Shown here: one piece after another, positions 2,137 to 36,751 of the stretch | Numbering within the stretch: the stretch's first letter is position 1 | Layout of the letters: each line of letters starts with the position of its first letter | Origin: Bacteroidales bacterium | Lineage (GTDB): Bacteria; Bacteroidota; Bacteroidia; Bacteroidales; P3 | DNA length: 36,751 nt | Assembly: GCA_031256055.1 (NCBI GenBank) | Contig: JAIRRI010000174.1 | Span: forward strand, 1 to 36,751 | Direction: 5' to 3' | Position numbers and translations under genes: made by a program | The notes under the pieces: model-generated | Told to the model about the DNA's origin: nothing | Seen by the model: only the letters and a program-made list of their open reading frames with translations | The model's database searches: none

Positions 2137-2171
2137 AAAACAGATATGCCAATATTGGTTGTATGCAAGCG

Positions 2172-2201
2172 AACTTTCCACGAATTTGGAGAGTTTTTTT
2201 T
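2172..2201 (+). terminator. Intrinsic terminator of the SAM-II riboswitch
   Basis: AACTTTCC (2172-2179) pairs with GGAGAGTT (2188-2195) over 8 bp with one U-G wobble, and a T-run to 2201 follows, all before the metK start. This suggests premature termination as the output. TGCAAGC at 2164-2170 is complementary to GCTTGCA (2106-2112) of the aptamer, and TGGT (2156-2159) to ACCA (2113-2116), so the ligand-free RNA can form an alternative hairpin that would disrupt the aptamer. Confidence 0.7.
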
Positions 2202-2222
2202 GTGAAATTTAAAATCAAAATT

Positions 2223-3521
2223 ATGGCTTACTTATTCACTTCAGAATCTGTGTCCGAAGGACATCCCGACAAAGTAGCGGATCAAATTTCCGACGCTTTA
2301 TTAGACCAATTTTTACGCTATGATCCGGAATCGAAAGTGGCGTGCGAAACGCTTGTAACTACAGGTTTGACCGTGTGTGCAGGCGAAGTAAAAACAAACT
2401 GTTATGTAGATGTACAACATATTGCTCGCGAAACGATCCGAAAAATCGGTTACACCAAAGCCGAATATCGCTTTGACGCGGATTCTTGCGGTGTGATTTC
2501 CGCTATTCATGGGCAATCGCAAGACATCAATCAAGGCGTTGAACGCAAGAAAGCCGAAGATCAAGGCGCGGGCGATCAAGGTATGATGTTTGGTTATGCG
2601 TGCAACGACATGGATAATCACATGCCGATGCCGGTTGAATTATCACACATTTTTTTGCAGGAATTGGCTGCCATTCGTAGAGAAGGCAAACAAATGAAGT
2701 ATTTGCGTCCCGATTCCAAATCGCAAGTTACGATTAAATACGAGGATAACGGCAAGCCGATTGCTATTGATGCTATTGTAATTTCCACGCAGCACGACGA
2801 TTTTGCAGAAGAGAAAAAAATGCTCGACACTATTAAAAAAGATGTTGAAACAATTTTAATTCCACGAGTGATAAAAACCTTACCAAAACGCGTACAAGCG
2901 TTGTTTAATGCGAAATACAAACTGTTTGTAAATCCGACAGGAAAATTTGTAATCGGCGGTCCTCACGGCGATACAGGTTTGACAGGTCGTAAAATTATCG
3001 TCGATACTTACGGTGGAAAAGGTGCTCACGGTGGTGGTGCGTTTTCGGGAAAAGACCCTTCGAAAGTAGACCGTTCGGCGGCTTACGCCATGCGACACAT
3101 TGCGAAAAATCTTGTAGCAGCAGGCATTTGCGACGAAGTTTTAGTTCAAGTGGCGTATGCAATCGGCGTGGCTCAACCTGTTGGATTGTATGTAAACACT
3201 TACGGAACGTGCAAAGCCAAGAAAAACGGAAAAATCATGCACGATGGCGAAATTGCAACTATCGTTTCCAAATTAATAGATTTACGTCCTTACGCAATTG
3301 TAAATCGTTTCGGTTTGAAAAACCCGATTTACTTGCCAACCGCGTCTTACGGACATTTCGGAAGAGACACCTACAAAAAAGACGTTGAAGTTTTTTATTC
3401 CAACAACGAAACCAAAACCAAAAAAATCGGTAAAGAAACTAAATATTTCAAAACTGTTGAATTTTTTGCTTGGGAGAAATTGGATTTGGTGAAGGATTTT
3501 AAGAAAGCGTTTGGTATGTAA
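2223..3521 (+). CDS. metK: S-adenosylmethionine synthase (methionine adenosyltransferase)
   Basis: A cytoplasmic enzyme making SAM from methionine and ATP, with release of phosphate and pyrophosphate. The start chosen is ATG 2223 ([25 protein letters not shown]), 20 codons inside the longest frame, because the upstream part is the riboswitch leader. The 432-residue product carries the ATP/methionine-binding start motif, the signature [12 protein letters not shown], the P-loop-like [21 protein letters not shown], the [19 protein letters not shown] motif and GVAQPVG. The C-terminal region (about residues 330-430) is somewhat longer than in E. coli MetK, as is usual in Bacteroidota. SAM-II riboswitch control is inferred from the leader. 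Confidence 0.97.
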
Positions 3522-5846: not shown

Positions 5847-6800
5847 TTAAAGTCTGTTTATTTTCTCTAATTTGTCGCTTTTGAAATGTAACCACGTATT
5901 TCCTACTTCCCAAACTTCCGCTGTTGCTGTTTTTTCAATAACTTTATACTTTCTGTTGTGATAGTTTAGTATTTCTCTACATATAACTTTACTCATACCT
6001 ATCTCATATTTGCCTGCTATAATTTTATCTGCGTGAGTTGCACCGAATTTGGCTACAAGTTGTTGCCTTCTTTGAGCTTGTTGTTGGGTTGATTGCTGAG
6101 ATGTTTTTGCTTCTCCTTGTTTCATTGCTCTGTACTGCGTTTCTGTCATCCAATGAGTATCGTTAGAGTTAGAAGGCCGAAAATTCTGCCACAATTTGTG
6201 ATTAAAAAATTTATCTTCTTCCGGAACCCGGATTTTTATTTGAGTTCCATCTTTTCTAACAAGCAATAAAGAAATAGTACGTCCATCCATTACAACATCT
6301 GTACATTTCCAATCTTGTTCGTTATTTCGAGTTACGGAATAGATATTTTGTCCAATAAACATTTGTTGCAATTTTATGAAACCGCCAACAAAAATATATT
6401 GATTGTTTCTAGACCTGAAATTTACGTCAGTATTATCGAAAAAATTCCAAGACGCTCTATCACCACTTTGCATTTCTTGCAAATCAAAATACCATTGACG
6501 ATAGGTCATTGAACCATATGTGACATGTGTACTAGTATCGATAATTTCGAAATATTTTTCGTCATATTTACGATATATTTGCTGACCAATATATTTTCCG
6601 AAAGCTGAAAGTGGCACTCCTTTCAAGCCACACATTTCCTCTACACTTATATAACAATACGAACTGTCGTAAGGAGCAAAGAGGCAATCCTTGTGTTTCC
6701 ACCACCGAGGTAATTCGGGTTCTTTTTCGGCTACTTTAATCTGCGCAAAAACACTAAGCGATAGAGTGATTGCAAAAAATGATGTGATAATTTTTTTCAT
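5847..6800 (-). CDS. Exported protein of unknown function (317 aa)
   Basis: The first 20 residues (MKKIITSFFAITLSLSVFAQ) are a signal peptide ending in the Bacteroidota-typical FAQ, so the protein is exported. No lipobox or membrane helix is seen. The middle contains a Gln-rich stretch (around residue 240, QQSTQQQAQRRQQ). The C-terminal 70 residues (GATHADKIIAGKYEIGMSKVICREI ... TWLHFKSDKLEKI) resemble the small SmpA/BamE-like repeats common in Bacteroidota envelope proteins: G-M-S followed by a helix, then a short strand pair ending in F-K-x-D-K-L. The gene lies directly downstream of a structured RNA with an intrinsic terminator, and no clear TAnnTTTG box of its own is visible, so its expression may depend on read-through. 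Function not recognised. Confidence 0.75.
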   Translation of the reverse strand: MKKIITSFFAITLSLSVFAQIKVAEKEPELPRWWKHKDCLFAPYDSSYCYISVEEMCGLKGVPLSAFGKYIGQQIYRKYDEKYFEIIDTSTHVTYGSMTYRQWYFDLQEMQSGDRASWNFFDNTDVNFRSRNNQYIFVGGFIKLQQMFIGQNIYSVTRNNEQDWKCTDVVMDGRTISLLLVRKDGTQIKIRVPEEDKFFNHKLWQNFRPSNSNDTHWMTETQYRAMKQGEAKTSQQSTQQQAQRRQQLVAKFGATHADKIIAGKYEIGMSKVICREILNYHNRKYKVIEKTATAEVWEVGNTWLHFKSDKLEKINRL

Positions 6801-6856: not shown

Positions 6857-6882
6857 AAAAAAAACGGACTTAACAAATCCGT
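6857..6882 (-). terminator. Intrinsic terminator at the end of structured RNA copy 2
   Basis: On the minus strand ACGGATTT (6882-6875) pairs with AAGTCCGT (6871-6864) over 8 bp with one U-G wobble around a GTT loop, followed by a run of seven U residues. It ends the structured RNA before the 317-residue secreted protein gene. Two of its stem bases (6881-6882) are also part of the closing helix of the RNA, so the two helices compete slightly. Confidence 0.8.
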
Positions 6883-6997
6883 ATCAAAGGTTTTCGACGA
6901 CCGTGTACCAAATAAGAAAGCCCGCTTTTTGCGAGCGTCACCTATTCTTGGTACTTTGAAACGTCGAAATTTTTGATACAAGAATTAGCAATCGCTA
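6857..6997 (-). ncRNA. Structured RNA, copy 2 (same class as the RNA at 35.75-35.98 kb)
   Basis: Read on the minus strand: a 5' hairpin TAGC-GATT-GCTA (6997-6986); closing helix GTATCAAA (6979-6972) with TTTGATAC (6888-6881); second helix TTTCGACG (6969-6962) with CGTCGAAA (6899-6892); a bubble with TTTCAAA on the 5' side and ACGG on the 3' side; an apical arm GTACCAA (6954-6948) with TTGGTAC (6911-6905), bearing CCAAGAATA and CTTATTTGG; and an apical hairpin GCTCGC/GCGGGC with an AAAAA loop. It ends in an intrinsic terminator. No coding frame fits the interval and no promoter box is clear within 60 nt upstream, so it may be processed from, or read through from, the toxin-antitoxin transcript. 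See copy 1 for the shared core. Confidence 0.75.
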
Positions 6998-7060
6998 TAT
7001 GTTTTTTGCTTTTTTTATTTCATGCTTTTCAGTTCTGATTTATATTTTTTTTGAATGTTT

Positions 7061-35732: not shown

Positions 35733-35740
35733 TATCTTTG
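35733..35740 (+). promoter_or_regulatory. -7 box (TATCTTTG) for structured RNA copy 1 and the PLD gene
   Basis: A perfect TATCTTTG. Transcription should start near 35747, about 30 nt upstream of the first hairpin of the RNA and about 268 nt upstream of the PLD-gene ATG. Confidence 0.75.
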
Positions 35741-35746
35741 CACCAA

Positions 35747-35980
35747 ATTAAACACTCCAAACTATGATAAAATCGTGCTAACAAGCACAAAAAAACAAAA
35801 CATATAAAATAGCGATTTGCTATTATTCGGATTACCCAAATTTCCACAAGTTGCCTGAAAAGGCAACAAGATCCCAAGAATAAGTTAGTGAACGCTCACG
35901 CTATTGCGTGGGCTTAACTTATTTGGGATCACGGCTGTGGAAAGCCAGGGTAATCAGTAAGATTAGTTCACGCTTTTTTT
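35747..35980 (+). ncRNA. Structured RNA, copy 1 (unclassified; 6S-like architecture), leader of the PLD gene
   Basis: No coding frame fits. Helices in order: GTGCT-AACA-AGCAC (35775-35788); AATAGC-GATTT-GCTATT (35808-35824); closing helix GATTACCC (35830-35837) with GGGTAATC (35948-35955); TTTCCACA (35841-35848) with TGTGGAAA (35936-35943); hairpin GTTGCC/GGCAAC (35850-35867) in the 5' side of a bubble whose 3' side is ACGGC; GATCCCAA (35870-35877) with TTGGGATC (35923-35930) and ATAAGTTA with TAACTTAT, GA bulged; apical GCTCACGC/GCGTGGGC with a TATT loop. A T-run (35974-35980) ends it. Copy 2 (6857-6997, minus) shares CCAAGAATA, CTTATTTGG and the core aligning ACGGCTGTGGAAAGCC with ACGGTCGTCGAAAACC. 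A Bacteroidota 6S RNA is one candidate; a regulatory leader is another. Confidence 0.75.
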
Positions 35981-36012
35981 ATTCTTTTTCAGCACTACCC
36001 AAATTTCCACAA
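35833..36012 (+). repeat. 17-nt direct repeat TACCCAAATTTCCACAA (35833-35849 and 35996-36012)
   Basis: Two exact copies, 163 nt apart. The first forms most of the 5' arm of the closing helices of structured RNA copy 1. The second ends 2 nt before the PLD-gene ATG at 36015. Both can pair with the 3' arm TGTGGAAA...GGGTA (35936-35952), so the two pairings exclude each other; pairing with the second copy would cover the ribosome-binding region. Confidence 0.85.
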
Positions 36013-36014
36013 CT

Positions 36015-36751
36015 ATGTCCTCAAAATTCTTTACAAACGAACACGAAAACACTCTACTCAACAAGATTAAAGAGGTTTTCGAGCATAAAAATATTCACTT
36101 TTTCGATGCACTTGTTGGCTATTTTCGTGCATCCGGCTATTTCAACGTGCGACCATTCGTTGAAAACGCAAGTGAAATCCGCATTTTAGTCGGCATCAAC
36201 ATTGATGAAATGGTTTACGATGCCAACAACAAAGGCTTGTTGTTTACCGGAAACGAGGAAGACAGCGTTGATACTTACATCGACAATCTCAAAAAAGATA
36301 TTCAAAACGCCAAATACGACAAAACCGTTGAAAACGGAATGTTGCAGTTTATTCGGGATTTGATTGACGAAAAAGTAAAAATCAAAGTTTACCCAAAACA
36401 AAATTTACACGCCAAAATTTATATCTTTCGTGAAAAACAAAAACACGCTCACGGCTACGGCTCGGTTATTACTGGGTCAAGCAATTTGACCGACTGCGGA
36501 CTGCAACACAATTTTGAGTTTAATGTTGAATTGCGAGAAGATGCCGACATTGATTTTGCCGTTGAAACCTTTGAGCAACTTTGGAAACAAAGCGTTGAAA
36601 TCGACAAGAAATTTATCGAAAAACTGAAAACCGAAACCTATCTTAACGATACGTTTACACCTTTTGAGATTTATTATAAATTTCTGATTGAATATTTTGG
36701 CAAAAGCGTTGAATATGATCCTAATTCTTTGCGCGATTTACCCAAAGAATA
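36015..36751 (+). CDS. PLD-like domain protein, probably a PLD-helicase (cut by window end)
   Basis: Open from ATG 36015 (MSSKFFTNEHENTLLNKIKE) to the window edge, 245 codons. The N-terminal 200 residues are a phospholipase D-type nuclease fold: DALVGYFRASGYFNV (30-44), LHAKIYIF with H132-x-K134 of the HKD motif, and TGSSNLTDCGLQHNFEFNVEL (153 onward) with the S/N of the same site. Family members with this opening usually continue into an SNF2/DEAD-type helicase and stand next to restriction-modification or other defence genes, so I expect a helicase in the next 2-3 kb. This part is not visible. Its mRNA leader carries structured RNA copy 1. Confidence 0.85.
   Translation, partial: MSSKFFTNEHENTLLNKIKEVFEHKNIHFFDALVGYFRASGYFNVRPFVENASEIRILVGINIDEMVYDANNKGLLFTGNEEDSVDTYIDNLKKDIQNAKYDKTVENGMLQFIRDLIDEKVKIKVYPKQNLHAKIYIFREKQKHAHGYGSVITGSSNLTDCGLQHNFEFNVELREDADIDFAVETFEQLWKQSVEIDKKFIEKLKTETYLNDTFTPFEIYYKFLIEYFGKSVEYDPNSLRDLPKE

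Follow-up and report, generated by a model that had tools for sequence, protein, structure and literature searches.

Bacteroidota include many gut and soil bacteria, and several described RNA systems offer points of comparison for the element reported here. 6S RNA is encoded by one, rarely two, free-standing genes per genome, binds RNA polymerase and templates a product RNA. Precedents for antitermination are provided by put-RNA and by NusG/LoaP-like systems, and the tetQ resistance operon of CTnDOT is regulated by translational attenuation. In Rfam, DUF805 and DUF805b RNAs (RF03081 and RF02914) are listed as cis-regulatory leaders. FopS small RNAs of Bacteroides, as described in the sections of PMC11697453 covered here, carry a single-stranded 5' seed and one terminator hairpin and act in trans on susC mRNAs.

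The window analyzed in this study is a stretch of 36,751 nt from a Bacteroidales bacterium (GCA_031256055.1, contig JAIRRI010000174.1). An initial annotation had claimed a structured RNA class present twice in the window, and had offered the choice between a diverged 6S family and a new class of RNA lying upstream of accessory genes. We found that the two copies, copy 1 at 35810-35980 on the plus strand and copy 2 at 6857-6997 on the minus strand, occur at the positions and with the folds that had been proposed, that the compensatory pairs named between their helices are present in the sequence, and that the copies are two of 21 in their own genome; the new class upstream of accessory genes held up, and the diverged 6S family did not. 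On balance, it appears probable that both copies belong to a multi-copy, Bacteroidota-wide family of folded 5' leaders, likely attenuating accessory genes in cis through a choice between an apical hairpin (P5) and a tail helix (PT); the genes so attenuated would likely often be of surface or defense type. The element resembles attenuating leaders and riboswitch platforms in its position as a same-strand 5' leader, in a hairpin that would exclude a predicted terminator-like helix, and in its U-run. Unlike in the usual attenuators, the 5' strand of its predicted terminator is the apical strand of a long rod and not part of a local hairpin, and, unlike those of usual attenuators and riboswitches, its downstream genes are accessory, varied and without a known shared pathway.

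Both copies follow a common plan: a 5' hairpin (H0) containing GCGATT; helices P1 and P2 with a small internal loop between them; an asymmetric bubble whose 3' side carries ACGG; and then P3, a bulged GA, P4 and the GC-rich P5. After this rod, both end in a tail followed by 7 or 8 consecutive U. The predicted folds are far more stable than those of dinucleotide-shuffled sequences: -79.6 kcal/mol for copy 1 against a shuffled mean of -42.2 (z -9.4), and -46.7 kcal/mol for copy 2 against -28.2 (z -5.7), with 0 of 200 shuffles reaching as low a value in either case.

Upstream of copy 1, a -7 box of the Bacteroidota type (TATCTTTG) lies at 35733-35740 on the plus strand, and the transcript would be expected to start a few bases downstream of it; a minimal leader ORF of five codons (ATG ATA AAA TCG TGC TAA) follows at 35764-35781. 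The H0 hairpin of this copy, TAGCGATTTGCTA, occupies 35810-35822, and its 5' strand, AGCG, is the complement of CGCT at the apex. The 5' strand of P1 (35830-35837) pairs with 35948-35955, and that of P2 (35841-35848) with 35936-35943. An additional hairpin predicted in the bubble (GTTGCCTGAAAAGGCAAC, 35850-35867) is an insertion that, as had been noted, has no counterpart in copy 2 when the folds are compared; no hairpin of this type was found among the aligned member rows listed. P3 (5' strand 35870-35877, partner 35923-35930) is followed by the bulged GA at 35878-35879, and fold and covariation place the 5' strand of P4 at 35880-35888, opposite 35914-35922. At the apex, the conserved motif AACGCT (35891-35896) overlaps the P5 5' strand GCTCACGC (35894-35901). 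The P5 3' strand GCGTGGGC (35906-35913) is common to P5 and the proposed terminator helix PT, in which its alternative partner would be the 3' tail TTAGTTCACGC (35963-35973); the U-run comes directly after the tail, at 35974-35980.

On the minus strand, copy 2 is preceded by a minimal ORF, ATG AAA TAA, at 7015-7023. Its H0, TAGCGATTGCTA, lies at 6986-6997, and the 5' strands of the rod helices, placed by fold and covariation, lie at 6972-6979 for P1 (partner 6881-6888), 6962-6969 for P2 (partner 6892-6899) and 6941-6945 for P4 (partner 6912-6916). P3 has its 5' strand at 6948-6954 and its partner at 6905-6911, with the bulged GA next to it at 6946-6947, and the same two lines of evidence place the apical hairpin P5 (GCTCGC/GCGGGC) at 6920-6936. 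The 3' tail TTAAGTCCG (6865-6873) would be the alternative partner of GCGGGCTT in PT, and the U-run lies at 6857-6864. This tail can also enter a weak local hairpin with CGGA, predicted at -5.6 kcal/mol versus -12.1 kcal/mol for PT; the corresponding PT energy in copy 1 is -13.8 kcal/mol.

The two copies are far from being the only members of the class. A covariance model of copies 1 and 2 (model R1; family scan, E <= 0.1, at most 20 candidates scored per genome), a search that the initial annotation had proposed, matched 108 of 189 family genomes, contrary to the possibility that no homologues exist beyond these two, and gave as many as 19 matches within a single genome of the organism's own genus. 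Each later model was seeded by matches of the preceding ones. Model R2, built from 24 members, matched 94 of the 295 order genomes, spread over 68 of 184 genera (E <= 0.01, with at most 10 candidates scored per genome, which makes the copy numbers low estimates), and model R3, built from 101 diverse members, matched 70 of 392 genomes of the phylum (E <= 0.001, at most 7 candidates scored per genome). The count of 21 element places in the 2.1-Mb assembly of the organism itself was obtained with R3, with 150 candidates scored. When one genome per species was scanned with a pattern, at least 117 stretches were returned; these gave 80 loci, and R2 matched all 80. The titles of these loci name Bacteroidetes, Bacteroidales, Flavobacteriales, Sphingobacteriales, Cytophagaceae, Chitinophagales and genera within these groups, with two exceptions, an uncultured bacterium and a Clostridia metagenome-assembled genome (MAG). 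Five copies were counted in Alistipes sp. dk3624, two in Millionella massiliensis, one in Sphingobacterium lumbrici and seven in Paenimyroides aquimaris.

As a control of specificity, the class of the Clostridia-labelled MAG was scanned, and none of the 148 genomes matched apart from that MAG, where the match lies on a 6.4-kb contig; the protein encoded after its element (L189) starts nearly identically to that of a Bacteroidales locus (L118). Two further scans of viral contigs gave 2 and 0 stretches; of the viral-contig stretches, L315 matches the model and L316 does not. The single members outside named Bacteroidota (L189 and L315) likely reflect misbinning or transfer. An exact DNA pattern taken from both copies found nothing beyond the two in the window among 190 family genomes. 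Nine matches to the exact pattern in viral contigs were rejected as chance matches, the rod being absent from the folds listed and the final model giving none at E <= 10, and a plasmid search with one member yielded a single short match that looks like chance (22% of the query, E 0.1).

The fold is borne out by changes on both sides of its helices, which contradicts the possibility, raised in the initial annotation, that an alignment would contain no covariation. In an alignment of 101 members (A12), which was fitted to the model and so leans towards structure, 97.2% of 3621 cells were paired, two-sided changes were present in 31 of 36 base pairs, and the covariation score was 0.756, compared with 0.186 after shuffling and at most 0.081 after sliding. 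A MAFFT alignment of 24 members, not fitted to the structure and with the structure taken from one of its rows, had 93.0% of cells paired, two-sided changes in 22 of the 36 pairs, and a score of 0.478 versus 0.184 shuffled and at most 0.109 slid. Among the 101 members, paired cells amounted to 98.3% in P1, 99.3% in P2, 97.7% in P3 and 99.3% in P5, and two-sided changes were found at every pair of P1 (8/8), P2 (7/7) and P3 (7/7), as well as at each of the three modelled pairs of H0 in A12. Because of the many length changes and the perfect inverted repeats, the interval does not appear coding-like.

Pair types were counted in 171 rows, that is, 176 aligned rows less 3 weak or antisense matches and 2 duplicate loci; removal of 7 rows lacking TTTT after P1 left 164, and k-mer overlap was used to select 128 representatives from these. 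Across P1 to P5 there were 355 G-U cells and 49 A-C cells, an asymmetry that implies a constraint acting on the RNA of this strand. The G-U share was 3-4% in P1 and P3 and 12-17% in P4 and P5. In P2, 1187 of the 1194 cells with letters on both sides were Watson-Crick and none was G-U, with all four pair types in use; this absence of G-U from a helix so variable in sequence is explained by none of the readings proposed here. A pairing of GGGT with ACCT across P2 was considered and dropped, on inferred steric grounds. By eye, GGGT, ACC and AACG appear to be conserved and unpaired, which is compatible with, and no proof of, a small-molecule aptamer.

The position of the element relative to genes is strongly oriented. 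For 115 representatives, the dominant downstream ORF (60-360 nt) shared the strand of the element in 108, ran opposite to it in 3 and was lacking in 4, and the same-strand ORF began at a median of 42.5 nt past the element; the dominant upstream ORF was on the same strand, on the opposite strand or absent in 62, 32 and 24 of 118 representatives, respectively. A TAnnTTTG box within 170 nt upstream of H0 was present in 92 of 126 representatives, against 11.8 expected from base shuffles, and in 21 of 112 far-upstream control regions. Copy 2 has no TAnnTTTG box nearby and sits between two same-strand ORFs, the upstream one encoding a protein of 154 aa without a Pfam match. Judged by position, the element lies between a predicted promoter and the start codon of a same-strand gene, the place of a transcription attenuator, and the copies appear to be gene leaders, not a free-standing single gene.

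Minimal ORFs are also enriched in these leaders, and are far from universal. Among leaders with a box and at least 40 nt (n = 87, a set that excludes copy 2, which has no box), 44 contained an ATG, zero or one further codon and a stop, compared with 15.6 expected from dinucleotide shuffles. In CTnDOT, the tetQ leader likewise places a very short ORF ahead of a regulated Bacteroides gene, but attenuation there is translational, and the likeness is one of description only. By eye, the U-run often runs straight into an ATG (TTTTTTTATGYC), which in some loci is apparently the start codon of the gene itself.

A U-run of at least 5 T follows the tail in 121 of the 128 representatives. The local hairpin that could precede it is weak, with a median of -2.7 kcal/mol over 30 nt, but some members do possess a usable one, since 38 of 128 lie at -5 kcal/mol or lower and copy 2 has the local hairpin given above; this speaks against a general need for PT. 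The duplex predicted between the P5 3' strand and the tail of the same member, PT, averages -13.3 kcal/mol, compared with -11.2 kcal/mol when tails are permuted among members (z -12.4), and reaches -8 kcal/mol or lower in 119 of 128 representatives. In the same permutation test, the known helix P5 gave z -14.9, whereas the tail against the P5 5' strand and the H0 strand against the P5 3' strand gave +0.8 and +1.3. A further control, the H0 strand against the tail, is a pairing in which we do not believe and still gave z -4.0, so that z values of this size can arise from relatedness. Since the pattern behind loci L113-L192 itself demands CCACG downstream, PT statistics were also calculated without them: z was -9.5 in the 73 representatives found without the DNA pattern and -4.8 in the 55 found with it.

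The innermost base pair of PT changes in step. In the 95 representatives with both motifs located, it was Watson-Crick in 73, compared with 38.3 on average and 51 at most after shuffling, and in members found by covariance model it was Watson-Crick in 35 of 43, compared with 16.5 (maximum 30). The 95 comprised 49 G-C, 14 A-T, 7 T-A and 3 C-G pairs, 7 G-U pairs and 15 mismatches (10 of them T-T); some of the 14 A-T pairs are to be expected anyway, with the T supplied by the U-run. Matched changes occurred in separate lineages, for instance GTGAGC with GTTCAC in L032 and L084 and GCGTGAAC with GTGTCACGC in L067. In fixed columns of A12, where the tail was modelled as unpaired, the signal was modest: the score was matched by 11 of 500 shuffles, the two-sided cells by 3 and the fraction paired by 92. 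As modelled, PT is a GC-rich helix directly 5' of the U-run, as is expected of an attenuator, and it has the look of a terminator whose formation would rule out the apical hairpin, P5 and PT being mutually exclusive through their common P5 3' strand. PT crosses P1-P4 and would consequently form a pseudoknot, unless the very stable P1-P4 melt.

These features suggest the following mechanism. While P5 is closed, the tail of most members would lack a strong partner and polymerase would read into the gene; when the P5 3' strand pairs with the tail instead, PT would form as a GC-rich helix directly before the U-run and transcription would end, with PT a pseudoknot if P1-P4 stayed closed. Opening of P5, which would favor termination, might be promoted by pairing of AGCGTT in H0 with the apical AACGCT (PK5), a weaker part of the proposal. 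This complementarity is conserved in the aligned sequences, with 90.5% of cells able to pair versus at most 49.7% when slid, and the pairing itself is putative: PK5 column covariation was within the shuffle range (385 of 500 shuffles reached the score in A12), the energy test was weak (z -6.2 for all, -4.3 for members found by covariance model and -1.4 for those found by pattern), and matched changes, such as GCATT with AATGC in L017 and L047, occurred in few members. PK5 also crosses P1-P4 and would for this reason need a pseudoknot or melting of the helices. The duplex energies of the two states, with loop costs left out, are -15.0 kcal/mol for H0 plus P5 and -19.4 kcal/mol for PK5 plus PT, close enough to be as expected for a poised switch. 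The trigger might be a small ligand that binds within the conserved internal loops, a protein or another RNA, or it might be ribosome occupancy of the minimal ORF.

Several other readings account for part of these observations. The element could be a family of stand-alone small RNAs that act in trans on other RNAs or proteins, with the U-run as a normal 3' end and the next gene expressed independently. The promoter-like box upstream of the element, the compact stable fold, the U-run itself and the number of paralogues per genome would all suit such a family, and FopS RNAs, in the portion of PMC11697453 considered, are likewise a multi-copy Bacteroidota family and possess an intrinsic terminator; the element differs from FopS as there described in being a long covarying cis rod, a comparison made at the sequence level by Rfam scans only. 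We consider the trans-acting reading unlikely, given that the downstream ORF was on the same strand in 108 of the 111 representatives with a clear one, and that at the short distance noted above most of these genes would be too close to have a second promoter; in addition, no conserved single-stranded seed was noticed by eye, and the conserved unpaired bases lie inside the fold. Another reading is a put-RNA-like antitermination site, where the folded leader would bind polymerase or a NusG/LoaP-like factor, so that polymerase reads past the U-run and later terminators. Downstream genes that are diverse, often long and without a common pathway would fit such a site, as would the P2 helix, in which the use of all four Watson-Crick pairs with 0 G-U in 1194 cells hints at a need for a precise helix geometry. 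However, antitermination alone leaves the member-by-member match between apical strand and tail unexplained, and we hold it to be quite unlikely.

A constraint on DNA instead of RNA would be expected if the element were an integron-like recombination site or a cassette leader in which recombination or template switching maintained the inverted repeats. Consistent with this are the near absence of G-U from P1-P3 (0-3.8%), the multi-copy occurrence beside variable genes, the presence of tRNA, tmRNA or RNase P genes at several loci and the occurrence of two elements together at L062, at L079 and, weakly, at L111. An attC-like site in particular predicts equal numbers of G-T and A-C mismatches and was rejected on the 355 G-U against 49 A-C cells counted above; the same excess, together with a G-U share of 12-17% in P4 and P5, is specific to the RNA strand, and the promoter box, the orientation and the U-run are features of leaders, which makes a DNA-level element very improbable. 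The 6S alternative of the initial annotation drew on a real likeness, since the element, like 6S and 6S-Flavo RNAs (RF00013 and RF01685), is a rod with an internal bubble. Unlike them, it occurs in many copies, 21 in one genome, and in leader position, and the comparison with Rfam that had been called for gave no match to either model on the element, in the window or in member loci, so that a diverged 6S family is hardly credible. In 21 relatives, RF00013 had no match (0/21) and RF01685 none above its cut-off (0/21); three matches to RF01685 fell below the cut-off, none of them at element places among the matches listed.

Copy 1 precedes a gene that runs off the window (36015-36751, plus strand) and matches PLDc_2 (E 8e-13) and RE_NgoFVII (E 3e-7), its product being predicted to have a phospholipase D (PLD)-like domain of the type found at the N-terminus of NgoFVII-type restriction enzymes. 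Copy 2 precedes a gene for a protein of 317 aa (5847-6800, minus strand) with an N-terminal hydrophobic, signal-like segment and no Pfam match. For the class as a whole, the 173 elements, less 19 with a short flank, 2 without a gene and 10 with repeat proteins, gave 142 distinct downstream proteins, of which 95 have an N-terminal hydrophobic core by a simple in-house rule (not SignalP), compared with 122 of 326 other ORFs of at least 200 aa from the same loci. Pfam and PADLOC were applied to 129 of the 142 (13 near-paralogues left out), over the first 420 residues at most. The Pfam matches, counted from 25 of 126 matching families, include BspA-type LRR_5 (11), MmeI_Mtase (5), N6_N4_Mtase (4), Fib_succ_major (3) and Por_Secre_tail (3). 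Those of PADLOC, counted from 25 of 149 matching and overlapping families, include type II and type III methyltransferases (up to 6 and 4), mads_2 (7) and type IV restriction enzymes (2). Single cases include an Eco57I-type methylase, helicases of the UvrD and ResIII kinds, an outer-membrane barrel and a MotA/ExbB protein, and a thiol-cytolysin-like protein is encoded downstream of an element in the organism's own genome. From their sequences, the downstream genes look accessory, encode secreted products more often than the background and have no common pathway, which is unusual for a ligand switch. Secreted or leucine-rich-repeat surface proteins and restriction-modification genes are prominent in the mixture, the Pfam and PADLOC figures being raw counts. 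A small protein of about 75-100 aa, helix-turn-helix (HTH)-like by eye, follows the element in L080, L129, L152 and L186, loci that come from different genomes; that of L080 has no Pfam match.

A bolder extension of this reading, which we put forward tentatively and judge possible rather than probable, is that one phylum-wide RNA switch, in up to about 20 copies per genome, jointly gates variable surface and anti-phage genes by a pseudoknotted terminator. If so, transcription termination would be the step at which one shared signal switches outward-facing and defensive genes on or off, and the apex of a rod-shaped sensor would swap partners with the 3' tail of its own RNA. The class makes testable how Bacteroidota might coordinate surface adhesins, lipoproteins and restriction systems after transcription initiation, and supplies a defined pseudoknot-terminator design for biochemistry.

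Rfam 15 gave no match on copy 1 or copy 2 in the window at E <= 5, and no family on the element in 47 member loci (27 of them searched, like the window, at E <= 5 or 1, and a further 20 at the gathering score). A class this common and covarying, without a match to Rfam 15 in the loci tested, would be a large uncharacterized class of leader RNA. No description of the element was found in the parts of PMC2864571, PMC9723704, PMC8040213, PMC11697453 and PMC7366714 that were covered, and a word search of PMC11109978 and PMC8632094 returned no occurrence; the element may have been listed earlier as an unnamed candidate in supplementary lists. Known leader RNAs do occur beside it. In 4 of the 47 member loci, a DUF805 or DUF805b RNA lies about 20-150 nt downstream of the element (L085, 1687-1881; L086, 1705-1863; L105, 1394-1462; L174, 3773-3840). 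Both are cis-regulatory leaders in this reading, but they have separate covariance models and the DUF805 RNAs lie beside the element and not on it, and these loci, as annotated from sequence, carry tandem leader RNAs of different classes.

Other features of the loci deserve mention. Two elements in the same orientation are found in L062, L079 and L111, the second being weak in L111, and ORFs lie between the two in L062 and L079. The element shares a locus of a few kilobases with tRNA, tmRNA or RNase P genes in L087, L128, L146, L149, L160, L162, L174, L184 and L187; such loci are possible integration hot spots. At copy 1, a 17-nt direct repeat on the plus strand (35833-35849, identical to 35996-36012) brings the 5' strand of P1/P2 again just before the downstream start codon, and could be what is left of a tandem copy, or might offer the P2 3' strand a second partner. 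As a general second partner, repetition of the P1-P2 strand was rejected, with a mean longest match of 7.8 nt versus 7.2 nt in controls; in 164 rows, repeats of at least 17 nt before the start codon were found at copy 1, L111 and L148 only. Elsewhere in the window, a SAM-II (long loop) riboswitch was recognized at 2084-2142 on the plus strand (63.4 bits, against a cut-off of 44), directly 5' of the ORF at 2163-3521.
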